Below are positions 20,929-55,225 of a stretch of 55,669 nucleotides of DNA, piece by piece (the first letter of the stretch is position 1; the number at the start of each line of letters is the position of its first letter). Below the pieces are notes generated by a model, which saw only the letters and a list, made by a program, of their open reading frames with translations, had not been told where the DNA came from and did not search any database. Both the position numbers and the translations under genes were made by a program. The DNA is from Ereboglobus sp. PH5-10 (GTDB lineage: Bacteria > Verrucomicrobiota > Verrucomicrobiia > Opitutales > Opitutaceae). Where the stretch lies: NCBI RefSeq assembly GCF_029504735.1, contig NZ_JAQFIP010000017.1, forward strand, positions 1-55,669. The letters are read 5' to 3'.

Positions 20929-22572
20929 ATGGAAAAACTCGCCCTACTCTCCGTCAGTGACAAAACCGATCTCGTCGAATTTGCGACCGCGCTTGTCAAA
21001 CAACACGGCTTCCGCCTGCTCTCGACCGGCGGCACCGCCAAGCTACTCGCCGAAAAGGGCTTGCCCGTCACCGAGGTCAGCCAGCACACCGGCTTTCCGG
21101 AAATTATGGAGGGGCGCGTCAAAACCCTTCACCCGAAAATCCACGGCGGGTTGCTCTGCCGCCGCGACAAGGCCGAACATCTCGCCGAGGCCGCGAAAAA
21201 CGGCATCGCCATGATCGACCTTGTGGTCGTCAACCTTTACCCGTTCGAGGCCACCGTCGCCAAGCCCGGCGTCGCGTTTGAGGAAGCCATCGAAAACATC
21301 GACATCGGCGGCCCCTCCATGCTCCGCAGCGCCGCCAAAAACCACGAGAGCGTGACCGTCGTTTGCGATCCCGCCGATTACAACGCCGTGCTCGGCGCCT
21401 TCGCCAAATCCGACGACACCGTCGGCCTGCTCGCGTTGCGCCGCCGCCTCGCGCTCAAGGTTTTCCAACGCACCGCCGCCTACGACGCCGCGATCTCCGC
21501 GTATCTCGGATCGAGTGGCATGGGCGACTCGCCCATGGGATCGGGTCGCGCGGACGACTCGGCCGCGCTTTCGGAACACGGGCGGGTCGCCTGTGCCACC
21601 CAACCCGCCGAGCCCGATCTCGACGCGCTCGCCGGGCTGCCCGCTCAGCTCGATCTCTCCTACAAAAAAGCCCAGTCGCTCCGCTACGGCGAAAACCCGC
21701 ACCAGAAGGCCGCGCTCTACGGCACGTTCCACGACCACTACCAGCAACTCCAGGGCAAGGAACTTTCCTACAACAACATCCTCGACATCACCTCGGCGAC
21801 CTACCTCATCGGCGAGTTCGAGCGCCCCACCCTCGCGATTCTCAAGCACACCAACCCGTGCGGCGTGGCCAGCGCCGACGACCTCGTGACCGCGTGGCAC
21901 AACGCCTTCGCCACCGACCGCCAGGCGCCCTTCGGCGGCATCATCATCGTCAACCGCACGCTCGAGGCCGACCTCGCGAAAATCATCAGCGAAATTTTCA
22001 CCGAGGTTATCATCGCGCCGCATTTCACCGACGAGGCGCTCGCCATTTTTGGCAAAAAGAAAAACCTGCGCCTCATGATTGCCAAGGGCGGCATCGGCGC
22101 GGATTCGCTCCTCGATGTGCGCTCATGCGTCGGTGGCCTGCTCGTGCAGGATCGCAACATCAAGCTCGGCAACCAAGCCGACTTCAGGGTCGTGACCAAG
22201 CGCCAGCCCACGCCCGAGGAATGGGCGAACATGATGTTCGGTTGGCGCGTGTGCAAACACGTCAAGTCAAACGCCATCGTGTATTGCCGCGACGAGCGCA
22301 CGCTCGGCGTCGGCGCGGGCCAGATGGCGCGCGTGGACAGCTCGCGCATCGCCGTGTGGAAGGCGGGTGAGGCCAAGCTCGACCTCAAGGGCAGCGCGGT
22401 GATTAGCGAGGCGCTGTTCCCGTTTGCCGACGGCCTCATCGCCGCGGCGGACGCCGGCGCGACCTCCGCCATCCAGCCCGGCGGCAGCATCCGCGACGAC
22501 GAAGTCATCAAGGCCGCCGACGAGCGCAACATGGCCATGGTCTTCACCGGCATCAGGCATTTCAAACACTGA
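20929..22572 (+). CDS. purH: Bifunctional AICAR transformylase / IMP cyclohydrolase with in-frame palindromic insert
   Basis: 547 residues; performs the last two steps of IMP synthesis. The N-terminal MGS-like cyclohydrolase domain has ALLSVSDKTDL, LSTGGTAKLL and EGRVKTLHPKIHGG. The C-terminal transformylase domain has LRYGENPHQKAALYG, LKHTNPCGVA and RDDEVIKAADE. Between them, residues about 195-230 are an extra Gly/Ser/Ala/Asp-rich stretch encoded by an inverted repeat (21513-21601), absent from usual PurH linkers. The frame is open from 20809, but conserved sequence begins at the ATG at 20929. Confidence 0.96.
   Translation: MEKLALLSVSDKTDLVEFATALVKQHGFRLLSTGGTAKLLAEKGLPVTEVSQHTGFPEIMEGRVKTLHPKIHGGLLCRRDKAEHLAEAAKNGIAMIDLVVVNLYPFEATVAKPGVAFEEAIENIDIGGPSMLRSAAKNHESVTVVCDPADYNAVLGAFAKSDDTVGLLALRRRLALKVFQRTAAYDAAISAYLGSSGMGDSPMGSGRADDSAALSEHGRVACATQPAEPDLDALAGLPAQLDLSYKKAQSLRYGENPHQKAALYGTFHDHYQQLQGKELSYNNILDITSATYLIGEFERPTLAILKHTNPCGVASADDLVTAWHNAFATDRQAPFGGIIIVNRTLEADLAKIISEIFTEVIIAPHFTDEALAIFGKKKNLRLMIAKGGIGADSLLDVRSCVGGLLVQDRNIKLGNQADFRVVTKRQPTPEEWANMMFGWRVCKHVKSNAIVYCRDERTLGVGAGQMARVDSSRIAVWKAGEAKLDLKGSAVISEALFPFADGLIAAADAGATSAIQPGGSIRDDEVIKAADERNMAMVFTGIRHFKH
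21513..21601. repeat. Palindromic element inserted in frame in purH
   Basis: Two 25-nt arms (21513-21537 and 21577-21601) are inverted copies differing at five sites, all transitions, so RNA pairing is kept by G-U pairs. It translates without stops and lengthens the inter-domain linker of PurH. Confidence 0.88.
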
Positions 22573-22579
22573 GATTTTC

Positions 22580-22666
22580 AATCGCGGAAGCGCGAAGGGG
22601 CGGAAACACGGATCAGGAATTTTAAAAAGCTTTTCCGCGCTTTCGCTCCTTCGCGCTTCCGCGATT
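22580..22666. repeat. Octamer-periodic inverted repeat (family E)
   Basis: Arms 22580-22609 and 22632-22666 share at least 19 perfectly inverted bases built from 8-bp units such as CGCGGAAG and CGCGAAGG. It fills the gap between purH and lpxB. Confidence 0.88.
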
Positions 22667-22680
22667 AATCAACATCCTTC

Positions 22681-23910
22681 ATGGCACAGTCCGCCCTTCC
22701 CTTTCGTCTTCCCGCCCCGCGCACCTCGCGCGTGGACCTGCTCGTCATCGCGGGCGAGCATTCGGGCGACCAGCACGCGGCGCGCATGGTGCGTGAATTC
22801 CTCTCGCACGACCAGGGCGGCAATCTTTCCGTCTGCGCGCTCGGCGGCCCCGAGCTCGCCGGCGCGGGCGCGCAATTACTCCACGACATGACCGCCACCT
22901 CGGTGATCGGCTTCGTGGAAGTGCTGAAACATTTCTCGTTTTTCAAGGCGCTCTTCAACGAAGTGCTCCGCTGGGTCGCCGTGTATAAACCGCGCGCCGT
23001 CTGCTTTGTCGATTACCCCGGCATGAATCTGCGCCTCGCCAACGAAATGCGCAAACGCGGCCTCTCGGTGAAAGGCGGCGGCCCCACGCGCACGCTCTTT
23101 TACATCAGCCCGCAAATCTGGGCGTGGAAAGCCGGGCGCCGTTTCTCGATGGCGCGCAATCTCGACGCGATGGCCGTCATCTTTCCGTTCGAGCCCGCGT
23201 GTTACGGCGACACCGACTTGAAAGGCCGCGTGGAGTTTGTCGGGCACCCCTTCGTCGCCGCCGACTATGCCGCGCCGGTGACCTACGATCCCAACGGCCC
23301 GATCCTGCTTCTCCCCGGCAGCCGCAAGCAAGCTGTCACGCGCATCTTCCCCGTGGTGCTCGCGGGATATGAGCGGTATCGTAGGGGCGTGCCAGACGCG
23401 CGCCCTGAAACACTCAACACGGACGAAGACAAGGGCGCGCGCCAGGCGCGCCCCTACAAAGACGCCGTAGTCCTTTATCCGAGTGCGGAAGTGCTGTCCG
23501 TTTTGCGCACGTTTCCCATTCCCGACAGCATCACGCTGCGCCCCACCGGCGAGCCGGTCGCGGCCTCGGCGGTGCTCACCAGTTCCGGCACGATGTCGAT
23601 GCACTGCGCGCTCGCGGGAATCCCCGGCGCGGTCGTGTATCGCATCAGCCCGCTGACTTATCTTTTCGGACGCCTCCTCGTGAAAGTGCCCTACATCGGT
23701 ATCGCGAACCTGCTGCTCAAGGAGCCGATGTATCCCGAGCACATCCAGGGCGCGGCCTCGCCCGAGGCGCTCGCCGCGCAACTTCACGACTGCATTGAAA
23801 ACCCCGCCCGCCTCGCGCACACCGAAACCTGCGCGGCAAAGCTCCGCGAAATCCTGCGCCAGCCGACAACCGGCACCGCCGCCGACTGGCTCGCGCGGCA
23901 ACTGGCGTGA
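22681..23910 (+). CDS. lpxB: Lipid-A-disaccharide synthase with in-frame palindromic insert
   Basis: 409 residues, GT19 family. It joins UDP-2,3-diacylglucosamine and lipid X in lipid A synthesis at the inner membrane. Family marks are IAGEHSGDQHAARMV, FVDYPGMNLRLA, YISPQIWAWKAGR, FVGHPF, LLPGSRKQAV and LTSSGTMSMHCALAGIPGAV. Residues about 234-260 (from RRGVPDARPETL to ARQARPYK) are an extra segment encoded by a palindromic element. Located 108 bp after purH across an inverted octamer repeat. It and the convergent DUF362 gene are separated by a 20-bp inverted repeat. Confidence 0.95.
   Translation: MAQSALPFRLPAPRTSRVDLLVIAGEHSGDQHAARMVREFLSHDQGGNLSVCALGGPELAGAGAQLLHDMTATSVIGFVEVLKHFSFFKALFNEVLRWVAVYKPRAVCFVDYPGMNLRLANEMRKRGLSVKGGGPTRTLFYISPQIWAWKAGRRFSMARNLDAMAVIFPFEPACYGDTDLKGRVEFVGHPFVAADYAAPVTYDPNGPILLLPGSRKQAVTRIFPVVLAGYERYRRGVPDARPETLNTDEDKGARQARPYKDAVVLYPSAEVLSVLRTFPIPDSITLRPTGEPVAASAVLTSSGTMSMHCALAGIPGAVVYRISPLTYLFGRLLVKVPYIGIANLLLKEPMYPEHIQGAASPEALAAQLHDCIENPARLAHTETCAAKLREILRQPTTGTAADWLARQLA
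23381..23457. repeat. Palindromic element inserted in frame in lpxB
   Basis: Arms 23381-23406 and 23432-23457 (26 nt each) are inverted copies matching at 23 of 26 sites. They begin with GTAGGGGCG and end with CGCCCCTAC. Related ends occur at 46079-46108, 53701-53726 and 54471-54482. It reads through in the lpxB frame. Confidence 0.9.
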
Positions 23911-23915
23911 TTGGC

Positions 23916-23984
23916 AGGGCGAAGCCTCCGGCTGAACCGCTCATTCGTTTCGATATGCGTCGGCTCAGCCGGAGGCTTCGCCCT
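23916..23984. repeat. 20-bp inverted repeat between convergent genes
   Basis: Perfect 20-bp arms (23916-23935 and 23965-23984; AGGGCGAAGCCTCCGGCTGA and its complement) between lpxB and the DUF362 gene. Probably a hairpin serving both transcripts. The outer bases AGGGCGAA recur in the repeat at 55137. Confidence 0.92.
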
Positions 23985-24007
23985 ACCCGCAAACACGCGC
24001 GGCGTGT

Positions 24008-25156
24008 TCACACGCGCACCAGTTCGTAATCGCGCGTGCCGACGCCGACCTTCTCGGCGTGCGCAAGTGTGTCGCGCCAGTTCGTGCTCGAAAAAACTGT
24101 CGTGAAATGATCGCACCGCATTTCGTTTTCGCCAGCCGCCCCGTCGCCCGCGGCCTTTTTCAAGACGCGCTCAAGCACGCTGCCGCCCATGACCGGCTGG
24201 CGGTTGCACGCGTCGGCGCACGCCTGGTCAACCGCTACGGCGTCGAACGATGCAAACATGCCCACGTCGGGAATGATCGGAATGTCGTTTTCGCCATGGC
24301 AGTCGCAGAAGGGCGAGACTTGCGTGACGATGTTGATGTGGAACTGCGGGCGCCCGCGCACGACGGCCAGCGCATACTCGGCCATTTTTTTCGAGAGCAT
24401 CTCGTTTGAGTCGCCGCTCGTGTTTTCGATGGCGTCGAAATTGCACGCGCCGATGCAGCGTCCGCAGCCGACGCATTTGTCAGTGTCGATGCGCGCGATG
24501 CCGCGCTCGTCGTAGGAAATCGCGTCCTGCCCGCACTCTTTGCCGCATGTTTTGCACTTGCGGCACTTGGACTCGTTCACCTGCGGCTTGCCGGCGTTGT
24601 GCTGCTCCATTTTTCCGGCGCGCGAGCCGCAACCCATGCCGAGGTTTTTGATCGCGCCGCCGAAGCCCGTGCACTCGTGCCCCTTGAAATGGTTGAGCGA
24701 AATAATCACGTCGGCGTCCATGATTGCGTGGCCGATTTTCGCCTCCCTCACATACTCGGTTCCGGCGAGAGGCACGATGGTTTCGTCGGTGCCCTTCAGG
24801 CCGTCGGCGATGATGATCTGGCATCCGGTGGACAGCGGCCCGAAGCCGTTTTCCATCGCGCAGTCGAGGTGGTCGAGCGCGTTCTTGCGGCTGCCGACAT
24901 AGAGCGTGTTGCAATCGGTGAGAAACGGTTTCGCGCCGAGCGGCTTGAGCACGTCCACGAGGCGTTTCGCGTAGTTGGGGCGCAGGAACGACAAATTGCC
25001 CAGCTCGCCGAAGTGGATTTTGACGGCGACGAACTTTCGCTCGAAGTCGATTGTCTCAATGCCCGCGCGCCTGACGAGGCGTTCAAGCTTGTCCGGCAAG
25101 CTCAAGCCGGGACGCGTGCGCATGTCGGTGAAATAAACGGGGGATTTCTGTTTCAT
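24008..25156 (-). CDS. DUF362 / 4Fe-4S ferredoxin-domain protein
   Basis: 382 residues. The DUF362 part carries FVAVKIHFGELGN, LTDCNTLYVGSR, DGLKG and SLNHFKGHECTGFGGAIKNLGMGC. Two [4Fe-4S] motifs follow: CRKCKTCGKECGQDAI and CVGCGRCIGACNFDAI. Such proteins are presumed cytoplasmic iron-sulfur proteins of unknown activity. The frame is open to 25249, but the ATG at 25156 (MKQKSPVYFTDMRTRPG) matches relatives and leaves room for a divergent promoter region shared with yicC. Confidence 0.9.
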   Translation of the reverse strand: MKQKSPVYFTDMRTRPGLSLPDKLERLVRRAGIETIDFERKFVAVKIHFGELGNLSFLRPNYAKRLVDVLKPLGAKPFLTDCNTLYVGSRKNALDHLDCAMENGFGPLSTGCQIIIADGLKGTDETIVPLAGTEYVREAKIGHAIMDADVIISLNHFKGHECTGFGGAIKNLGMGCGSRAGKMEQHNAGKPQVNESKCRKCKTCGKECGQDAISYDERGIARIDTDKCVGCGRCIGACNFDAIENTSGDSNEMLSKKMAEYALAVVRGRPQFHINIVTQVSPFCDCHGENDIPIIPDVGMFASFDAVAVDQACADACNRQPVMGGSVLERVLKKAAGDGAAGENEMRCDHFTTVFSSTNWRDTLAHAEKVGVGTRDYELVRV

Positions 25157-25343
25157 GAATCGAGGGAGTATTGAAAGTGTGAAAATTTGTGATGACGGGA
25201 GATTGCACGCCGAGAGAGGGATTGTCGATAGCGTGAAAAGCGCGGGCAAGCTTTCGCGGGTTTGCGCGGCGGCGCATTTTTTTGGAACGCGCTACAATCA
25301 GCGCGCGCTTGCGCCGGAACGCCCGGTCATGTTCATTCGCCGC

Positions 25344-26222
25344 ATGAAAAGCATGACAGGCTTCGGCCGCGCCACCGCCCCCCTCGGCACCAGCACACTC
25401 ACCGTCCAGGTGAATTCCGTGAATCGCAAAACACTCGATCTCGCGATCTCGCTCCCGTCCGAATGGGCCGAATACGAGGCGCCCGCGGGCGAGCTTGCGC
25501 GCAAATACGCCGCGCGCGGAAAAATCAACATCCGCTTCGACGTGACCGGCGCCGATGGCGCGCAAAGCCAAGCCTTCAACTGGGACGAGGCTGCCGTTGA
25601 CGCCGTCCTCGAAAGGCTCAAGGCGCAGGCCGCGCGCAACGGGGTCGGGCTCGAGATCACGCCCGAGCTTTTGTGGAGCGTCGTCGGCTCGCAGCGAAAG
25701 AAAGCCGACCTTCCCGCCGGCGACGACGTGCGCGCCACCGTCCTCGCAACGCTTGAGGAGGCGCTGCGCGCGTTCTCCTCCATGCGCGCGCGCGAGGGCG
25801 CCGCGCTGCTCGCCGACTTCGAGGATCGTATCCAAAAAATAAATACACACGTCCGCTCCGTCGCGGAGCTCGCGCCGTGCGTCGCGCCCGCGTGGCGCGA
25901 GCAGCTTCTGAAGCGGCTGCGCGACGCCGGGCTCGAGATCAACCCCGACGACGAGCGCGTGCTGAAGGAGGTCGCGCTCTTCGCGGACCGCTGCGACATC
26001 GCCGAGGAAATCACGCGCCTGCGCAGTCACCTCTCGCAATTCGCCGCGTTGCTGCGCGGCGACGCGGAGATCGGGCGCAAGGCGGAATTCATTTTGCAGG
26101 AGATGGGGCGCGAGGTGAACACGATTGGAAGCAAGGCGAACAACATCGAGATTTCGCGCCGCGTGATCGAGATGAAGAACGAGCTCGAGCGCGTGCGCGA
26201 ACAAATCGCCAACATCGAATGA
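25344..26222 (+). CDS. yicC: YicC/YloC-family endoribonuclease
   Basis: 292 residues, the family length. N-terminal YicC_N starts with [10 protein letters not shown] and contains [19 protein letters not shown]. The C-terminal DUF1732 has [40 protein letters not shown] and [19 protein letters not shown]. The family is reported as endoribonucleases, e.g. clipping of small RNAs in Escherichia coli. The frame is open from 25155, but homology begins at the ATG at 25344. Contains a 20-bp string (25828-25847) shared exactly with polX. Confidence 0.92.
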
Positions 26223-26306: not shown

Positions 26307-26525
26307 ATGGCATCAAAAACCAAAAAACCGGCCGCTAAAAAAGCGGTGAAAAAAACCAGCGTTGCTAAAAAAGCTCCCGCCAAAAAAGCGGCTGCCAAAA
26401 AAGCTCCTGCCAAGAAAGCGGTTGCTAAAAAAGCTCCTGCCAAGAAGGCGGTTGCTAAAAAGGCTCCCGCCAAGAAGGCGGTTGCCAAGAAGGCTCCTGC
26501 TAAGAAAGCAGCGAAGAAGAAATAA
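26307..26525 (+). CDS. Lysine/alanine/proline-repeat histone H1-like protein
   Basis: 72 residues composed almost only of K, A, P and V, with a 10-residue repeat [10 protein letters not shown] encoded by a 30-bp DNA repeat. Such proteins resemble eukaryotic H1 tails and chlamydial Hc1/Hc2, and bind DNA by charge. AAAGGA lies about 8 nt before the ATG at 26307, making it a better start than the in-frame ATG at 26298. A strong terminator follows. It is a free-standing version of the tail seen on the DksA-like protein at 27333. Confidence 0.85.
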
Positions 26526-36898: not shown

Positions 36899-37732
36899 TT
36901 AGCGCGATCCGGTAAGCATCTCTCCGAGGCCGGCGAGGTTTTCAACAATAATGTCGGCCTTGACCGAGGATTCCTCGGCGTCCTGTCGCGTGGCTTCGCC
37001 GGAGAGGACGAGCACGCCCGTAACGCCGGCGTTTTGAGCCATGGCGATGTCGGTGTAAATACGGTCGCCAACCATCGCGACTTCCTCCGGGCGGAGGTTG
37101 TGGCGCTGGAGGATGCCGGTGACCATCGAGGGATCGGGTTTTCCGAAAACCTTGTCGGGAGCGCGTCCCGTGGCGGATTGGATTGCCGCGCAGATGGCAG
37201 CGCAATCGACGAGCACGGTGGGCAGGTCGGTGGGGCAAATGCGATCGGGGTTGGTTGCGAAATAGGGGCGGCCTTGCGAGGCCCACCACGAGGCACGGCA
37301 GAGGCGCGCGTAGGTGAGGCTCATGTCGAAGGCGGCGATGACGGCGTCGGGGATGTCGGCGGGATCGTCGTTGGCGGATTCGTAACCGGCCTTGGTGAAT
37401 TCGCCGATCATGCTGGGCGTGCCCAGAAGGAACAGGCGGCGGAACTCGGGATGATTGGCTTTCAGCCAGTCAATGGTGGCCTGCGCGGAGGTGTAGAGTT
37501 GCTCGGGCGCGGAGGGAATTCCGATGCGCTCCAAGTGCGCGAGATAATCGGCGGAGCTCTTGGAGGGATTGTTGGTGAGGAAGGTGTAGCCGATGCCGTG
37601 CCGGGTGAGGGAATCGAGGAACGGTTTTGTCCAGGGAAACAGCGTGCCGCCCTTGTAGATGGTGCCGTCCATGTCGAGGACGACATGGCGAATGCGGGAG
37701 GTGTCGGCGTTGGTTGTGGCGGATGCGGTCAT
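36899..37732 (-). CDS. HAD-IIA family sugar/glycerol phosphatase (NagD/PGP-like)
   Basis: 277 residues. The nucleophile motif is VVLDMDGTIYKG (D20, D22), then FLTNNPSKS, FGKPDPSMV and MVGDRIYTDIAMA. The cap placement is that of HAD class IIA (NagD, phosphoglycolate/glycerol-3-phosphate phosphatases). Between glpD and the glycerol-1-phosphate dehydrogenase in the same operon, so a glycerol-phosphate substrate is a reasonable inference. Relatives in this class are known to dephosphorylate glycerol phosphate. Confidence 0.9.
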   Translation of the reverse strand: MTASATTNADTSRIRHVVLDMDGTIYKGGTLFPWTKPFLDSLTRHGIGYTFLTNNPSKSSADYLAHLERIGIPSAPEQLYTSAQATIDWLKANHPEFRRLFLLGTPSMIGEFTKAGYESANDDPADIPDAVIAAFDMSLTYARLCRASWWASQGRPYFATNPDRICPTDLPTVLVDCAAICAAIQSATGRAPDKVFGKPDPSMVTGILQRHNLRPEEVAMVGDRIYTDIAMAQNAGVTGVLVLSGEATRQDAEESSVKADIIVENLAGLGEMLTGSR

Positions 37733-55088: not shown

Positions 55089-55136
55089 TCCCTGAAAGGC
55101 AAAATCACGCATGTATGTGGTGGGCGGAAGCGGAAG

Positions 55137-55198
55137 GTAGGGCGAACCGTCCCGGTGAGCCGGTCGCATTATCGACTCACCGAGACGGTTCGCCCTAC
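55137..55198. repeat. 23-bp inverted repeat near the IS end
   Basis: Arms 55137-55159 and 55176-55198 match at 22 of 23 sites and begin GTAGGGCGAA, like the outer part of the repeat at 23916-23984. It lies between the small membrane protein gene and the transposase. Confidence 0.9.
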
Positions 55199-55225
55199 CT
55201 TGAACCTGAAAACCGCGATTGGAGA

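Follow-up and report, generated by a model that had tools for sequence, protein, structure and literature searches.

The palindrome located within the lpxB gene of Ereboglobus sp. PH5-10 (family Opitutaceae) is very probably a non-autonomous mobile repeat, consisting of two GTAG REP hairpins joined head-to-head, that reached the gene as an insertion. It is found in a window of 55,669 nucleotides (contig NZ_JAQFIP010000017.1; by the window we mean the whole stretch of DNA analyzed) belonging to a genome of 3.58 Mb, referred to here as G000, while G001, G002 and G003 denote genomes of the same genus. The lpxB gene offers a clear, phylogeny-placed case of a bacterial mobile repeat entering the gene of a core enzyme. 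Insertion of REPs within genes is not new in kind, as it was described in 2013 (PMC3733652), and what we consider to deserve further attention is that these repeats recur in one frame and in linkers, and that a single turn of LpxB was struck twice.

The palindrome in lpxB and its absence from relatives

The lpxB gene (22681..23910, + strand) encodes lipid-A-disaccharide synthase, and its open frame of 409 amino acids is intact with the insert included; the protein scores 170 bits against the NCBIfam model TIGR00215, under the cut-off of 190 for that model. The first-pass annotation had reported an in-frame palindrome with 26-nt arms matching at 23 of 26 positions at 23381-23457, and it is indeed present there without disrupting the frame, its arms (23381-23406 and 23432-23457) being 88% complementary and 25 nt apart. 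The 77-bp element (23381..23457, + strand) is a head-to-head, REPIN/BIME-like dimer of GTAG REPs that encodes LpxB residues 234-259 (RRGVPDARPETLNTDEDKGARQARPY). Its left REP (23381..23405, + strand) is composed of the GTAG tag and the hairpin GGGCGTGC-CAGAC-GCGCGCCC, and its right REP (23433..23457, - strand) is an inverted copy with the tag and a hairpin (GTAGGGGCGCGCCTGGCGCGCGCCC). GTAG REPs have been defined by an unpaired GTAG at one end of a stem-loop with a stem of 5-13 bp and a loop of 2-20 nt (PMC3733652), and both lpxB arms conform to this definition: folded alone, each has an 8-bp stem closed by a 5-nt loop, with the GTAG left unpaired in front of it (z about -2.8 and -3.0), and in each case 2 of 200 shuffles reached this stability. 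The complete 77-nt element folded as DNA reaches -29.0 kcal/mol (z -6.9), a stability found in none of 200 shuffles, and the inverted doublet with its spacer forms one hairpin, as in REPINs.

An LpxB sequence was recovered from 55 of 57 genomes searched (G000 included), with no match in G052 or in the same-genus genome G003, which is 65% complete. The first-pass annotation had proposed an alignment of LpxB from relatives, in which an insert shared by all of them would speak against insertion; a comparable insert in this part of the protein is absent from 53 of the 55 genomes. The nearest sister, G001, encodes an LpxB that is 95% identical and 60 nt shorter, and it does not have the palindrome. 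The estimate of about 26 added residues is correct for the coding capacity of the element (residues 234-259) and too high for the net gain over G001, which is 20 residues (60 nt) as a result of differences in, or partial replacement of, the host loop. The segment from LPGSR to YPS spans 34-40 residues in 52 of the 55 genomes, 44 in G007, 58 in the window and 77 in G002; the LpxB proteins of loci L022, L025 and L029 are also longer, but only farther downstream than this segment. Among 80 named loci, a set overlapping with the 55 genomes, the segment measures 34-39 residues in 79; the exception is L119, identical as a record to G002, with 77 residues. In G002 this turn of the protein is occupied by another palindrome, which encodes GGTGFQPV...HGQDARAT and whose two arms fit exactly the GTGG pattern of the family found in purH (see below). 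To judge by these alignments, one LpxB turn has been entered by two REP families in two sister species, with the nearest species, G001, free of either.

We sought a clean empty site or a target duplication in lpxB and at two other REP sites and found none. The element length of 77 bp is not a multiple of three while the net difference from G001 is 60 nt, and the flanks in lpxB cannot be aligned exactly, as neighboring codons differ. The boundaries are likewise imprecise at two G000 REP sites that are empty in G001, the dimer at C1:45071 and the copy with a decayed partner at C1:50463; REPs appear to turn over between these sister species. In a separate region of G000 (C1:39284-41427), two REP copies enclose about 2.1 kb that is missing in G001, where a single REP is kept; this looks like REP-mediated loss or gain.

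The palindrome had been placed right after the LPGSRKQ motif (residues 211-217); it does follow this motif, but begins 17 residues past it, at the end of the next helix in the model. We built an AlphaFold2 model of LpxB from 28 sequences (the window and named loci; mean pLDDT 85). Mapping the insert on this model, as had been suggested, puts it in a low-confidence turn, where residues 240-255 (pLDDT < 50) are modeled as a coil linking helix 216-234 to strand 262-266; the other stretches with pLDDT < 50 are short (1-4, 74-78 and 148-150). The alignment of the 28 sequences contains no invariant or near-invariant position within 234-259. The insert is thus probably a floppy surface loop in a helix-strand turn of the C-terminal half. 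The solved structures nearest to the model are three LpxB entries, which we take to be E. coli proteins, and comparison with 5w8n gives a TM of about 0.53 and an rmsd of 19.6 over the whole chain, which is a placement by fold family and not a close superposition.

The GTAG REP family and its candidate RAYT

The first-pass annotation had also suggested a genome search for similar palindromes. The GTAGGGGCG..CGCCC hairpin has 96 matches in the 3.58-Mb G000 genome, some of them overlapping and some in frame within genes, compared with 6 for a reversed-pattern control, which gives the many dispersed copies expected of GTAG REPs. A census of 45 stretches around exact matches plus the window, covering about 8% of the genome, contained 21 head-to-head dimers with GTAG at their outer ends, the one in lpxB included; 13 of these are 101 bp long with spacers alike by eye. 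Another 27 elements, of the 24-bp GTAGGGGCGTCGC type, did not score as dimers, although in some of them a second REP may have decayed; they include one overlapping pair of 28 bp. The 19 other singles are of the GTAGGGGCGCACC/CGCC type. From a wider fuzzy census of 81 elements we set aside 14 as not REP-like, among them the one at window position 37262, which presumably is native sequence of a HAD-type gene, judging by eye. The lpxB dimer has a diverged left arm and, by eye, a spacer unlike that of the 101-bp dimers, and with this spacer and a length of 77 bp it is an atypical or aged copy of the family.

There are eight matches to Y1-type transposases (Y1_Tnp) in G000. A RAYT (REP-associated tyrosine transposase) gene is encoded at C3:25222-25776 (NCBIfam NF047646, 86.1 bits; cut-off 80) and has 101-bp dimers of the GTAG family on both sides (25122-25222 and 25816-25916), which is the arrangement of a REPtron, i.e. 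a RAYT flanked by repeats of the same family. These dimers were read directly from the sequence, as a hairpin scan of the eight Y1_Tnp loci under a strict rule left them out. The TAG stop codon of this RAYT belongs to the GTAG of the REP next to it, and REP ends are described as often supplying the TAG stop of a neighboring ORF (PMC3733652). The G001 copy of the RAYT is 99% identical, and dimer-like matches occur at both of its ends too. Within 57 related genomes, 32 have a match to the C3 RAYT and 16 have matches to a general dimer pattern (at least two matches in 12 of these); since the reversed dimer control gave 1-3 matches in 15 genomes, single matches mean little. One genome, G019, is rich in dimers of this general pattern, yet the C3 RAYT has no match in it. 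Another Y1_Tnp match of G000 (C4:128361, locus L018) is flanked by inverted GTAGCACAGACA..TGTCTGTGC hairpins at 1415-1436 and 2205-2226, and is possibly a second REPtron with another REP.

Arrival of the lpxB element

The dimer probably arrived in lpxB through RAYT-dependent copying of REP DNA, for which the C3 gene, lying elsewhere in the genome between two dimers of the same family, would be the source of the RAYT. It would have landed in the turn predicted between a surface helix and the next strand in the C-terminal half of LpxB, and would have persisted because it contains no stop in this frame, changes the net length by a multiple of three and forms a floppy loop harmless to the enzyme; such harmlessness is suggested by the frame being intact, the turn lacking conserved positions and the model confidence being low. 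The same filter may operate genome-wide, keeping REPs in frame mainly in variable linkers or loops and removing the rest.

It could be argued that the palindrome belongs to an ordinary loop of LpxB and that its codons are self-complementary by chance, as the window contains many weak inverted repeats. We rejected this reading on account of the sister genome G001, identical in 95% of its LpxB and lacking the insert, and of the 53 genomes in which it is absent; it is also at odds with the arms matching a repeat family dispersed through the genome. In addition, the best 26-nt arm match among 60 codon-shuffled copies of lpxB was 21 (mean 17.3), none of them reaching 23 of 26, and lpxB without the element attains only 18. 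A native loop is therefore scarcely credible. The imprecise boundaries in lpxB and at two other sites, the unusual spacer of the lpxB dimer, and the dimer-rich genome G019 with no match to the C3 RAYT would be in line with an arrival independent of a RAYT. Another REP could, for example, have served as the source for template switching or gene conversion, with the copy then duplicated in inverted orientation on the spot and part of the host loop replaced. We consider this unlikely, since both lpxB arms end in the GTAG of the family and the RAYT gene has family dimers on both sides, while the edges can also be explained by later decay and other RAYTs may escape a query with the C3 RAYT.

Selection of the insert for a function, either as an RNA hairpin tuning the purH-lpxB transcript or as a loop altering LpxB, is very improbable in our judgment, even though the 77-nt hairpin is stable and the same turn was entered in two species by different REPs. 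Di Nocera et al. considered insertions in replication and repair genes hard to call fortuitous and speculated that REPs have changed some repair proteins, while neutrality in flexible linkers or loops is one of the arguments in the same paper (PMC3733652, in the parts considered here). The two peptides inserted in LpxB have no sequence in common by eye and most genomes have no insert, which argues against a conserved function, and a tolerated site explains the repeated strike equally well.

Copying of a GTAG REP dimer into a tolerant turn, the reading we prefer, can be compared with several known systems. With the GTAG REPs of Di Nocera et al. (2013), who describe such REPs, their dimers, REPtrons and intragenic copies, the Ereboglobus repeats share the GTAG tag, the short stem-loop, a RAYT gene flanked by repeats, copies inside ORFs and head-to-head dimers, with spacers there mostly of 20-100 bp (PMC3733652). 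According to that paper, intragenic GTAG repeats are most numerous in Opitutus terrae, a member of the same family as Ereboglobus, more than half of the intragenic inserts are dimers or groups encoding 20-30 residues, and the REPs at nearly the same site of recB differ between two Xanthomonas species. Its cases concern other species and genes, and lpxB is not named in the parts of the main text covered. REPINs (Bertels and Rainey 2011, PMC3116915) likewise consist of an inverted REP doublet forming one long hairpin and are associated with RAYTs, and the REPs/BIMEs flanking RAYTs (Nunvar et al. 2010, PMC2817692) share the RAYT association and the GT(A/G)G head. Both are described as extragenic in the parts of these papers considered, whereas the lpxB copy lies in an open coding frame; the other 20 of the 21 dimers failed the coding score. 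Rickettsia palindromic elements resemble the lpxB element in being palindromic repeats tolerated in frame in unrelated protein genes, but are 105-146 bp long, compared with 77 bp, and belong to another phylum (PMC2229807 and PMC10969869, as far as covered here). Assignment of the lpxB and purH elements to this group was rejected, as the NCBIfam matches of LpxB and PurH (E 0.001) were confined to the enzyme families to which they belong and to related ones. We assume that NCBIfam holds models of the Rickettsia elements.

Our literature searches on RAYT and REP in Verrucomicrobia and on intragenic RAYT-associated REPs found only PMC3733652, which is also the only paper fitting by title for intragenic REPs and linkers; no paper was found for the GQDARAT peptide, and none of the titles on Ereboglobus concerns repeats.

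In-frame REPs in other genes

The purH gene (20929..22572, + strand), encoding the bifunctional AICAR transformylase/IMP cyclohydrolase, carries in frame a REP dimer of a second, GTGG-tagged family (21515..21599, + strand). This insert is absent in G001, G002 and G003, where the alignment breaks off at residue 194-195 and is taken up again at 222-225, the two parts being separated by 3-6 nt, and the earlier view of both palindromes as insertions of two different families, GTAG-tagged in lpxB and GTGG-tagged in purH, agrees with these close relatives. The two families are not unrelated, because GT(A/G)G, the tag of both, is the head given for RAYT-associated REPs (PMC2817692), and in one O. terrae family GTGG replaces GTAG in most members (PMC3733652, main-text parts). 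The GTGG pattern has 41 matches in G000, 26 in G001 and 255 in G002 (control 0). We surveyed 30 loci from these 322 matches, 10 per genome, and a coding frame was recovered at 9 of them (six sites) and at none of the remaining 21. The G000 proteins with an in-frame GTGG dimer are PurH, a NuoG-like protein scoring below its NCBIfam cut-off, an AceF-like E2 and, twice, a CusA/CzcA-type pump; elsewhere the dimer is in frame in one unnamed G001 protein and in IspH of G002. The metH gene of G002 (C12:76223-79069) spans two GTGG REP matches (77448 and 78422) with one TAG reported inside, which could be a damaging insertion or a MAG error.

Translated in frame, the 24-bp REP gives VGASLATP or a closely similar peptide in SMC, MetH, a SufT-like protein and SucB of G000 (named by NCBIfam, with SMC and SufT-like below their cut-offs), and also in a TagF-like protein, a large unnamed protein (C5) and a short protein (C7). 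The TagF-like protein had no NCBIfam family match, and we take its identity from resemblance. In PurL of G003 the same repeat reads AGALLATP. Relatives without the insert were seen for LpxB, PurH and the SufT-like protein, whose linker segment has 43 residues in both G001 and G002 compared with 68 in G000; the G003 segment, also of 68 residues, differs in content. The linkers holding the REP in SMC and MetH are variable among relatives and not clearly longer, so the REP may have replaced linker sequence there, or these are weaker cases. The suggestion that two such events in adjacent genes reflect a general process is supported by these in-frame REPs and by the dimer of the other family in the LpxB turn of G002, and such a process was already in print. 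It is noticeable that most REPs have no coding frame, and location within genes is therefore not the rule: in the G000 census no frame passed the coding score for 20 of 21 dimers, 18 of 19 GTAGGGGCGCACC/CGCC-type singles and 19 of 27 24-bp elements, and the 24-bp pattern had a coding frame in 0 of 11 G001 and 0 of 2 G002 matches.

Frames were selected by codon scores of the flanks and not of the element. Eight of the 27 24-bp elements passed, and the seven accepted as intragenic all lie in one orientation and frame, although five of the six frames of this REP are stop-free as read from its sequence. Together with PurL of G003, 8/8 accepted copies from two species read VGASLATP-like, and the leading arms of GTGG dimers read SGTGDSPV, SGMGDSPM or GGTGFQPV in 8/8 cases (the six surveyed sites, purH and lpxB of G002), both figures being counts from the same data in which the cases were found. 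Two sites in other frames were left out, namely C1:188249, which scored weakly and has only 26 codons upstream, and the L310 site in G003 (score 0.04); with these two added the count for the 24-bp type becomes 8/10. At C3:224067 the codon score chose the opposite strand, and the SMC frame was taken instead on the basis of NCBIfam and relatives. In IspH of G002 the second of two tandem GTGG copies is in another frame. The lpxB dimer lies outside the VGASLATP frame and ends in GARQARPY, and the only accepted GTAGGGGCGCGCC-type single (C19:40900) reads GARKARPY, like this end.

The frame bias hints at selection for harmless linker peptides. It is less expected than the intragenic location itself, and we do not claim it as unpublished. 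As a tentative and on balance doubtful extension, the REP families of Ereboglobus may have been shaped to tolerate translation, serving as a recurrent source of linkers and loops, with selection on the peptide feeding back on REP sequence and length. Such a reading is based on intragenic copies occurring almost only in one orientation and frame, in which the encoded peptide is small, flexible and neutral, namely VGASLATP for the 24-bp REP (24 bp being eight codons) and GTGDSPV/GTGFQPV...HGRVARAT for the GTGG dimer. The REP-decorated proteins of the genus (LpxB, PurH, PurL, SMC, MetH, SufT-like, SucB, AceF-like, NuoG-like and IspH) form a natural series that makes the question of whether selfish repeats supply linkers testable.

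Several other repeats were observed in the window and related loci. A palindrome with 33-nt arms, unlike both in-gene elements, lies between purH and lpxB (22580-22666). Inverted pairs with GTAGGGCG-type ends are located directly after lpxB (23913-23987) and at 55134-55201, and apparently represent a third REP-like family. A large unnamed protein (L072, 6088-8193) contains the peptide GTARVxRADSVVP in five near copies, four of which are arranged in tandem, and a related peptide (GTARVPRADGVVP) is present in the TagF-like protein (L059), which suggests one more coding repeat family. A tandem 15-bp repeat at 26316-26510 of the window looks like a lysine/alanine-rich tail of the AKKA type, presumably resembling that of histone H1-like proteins.
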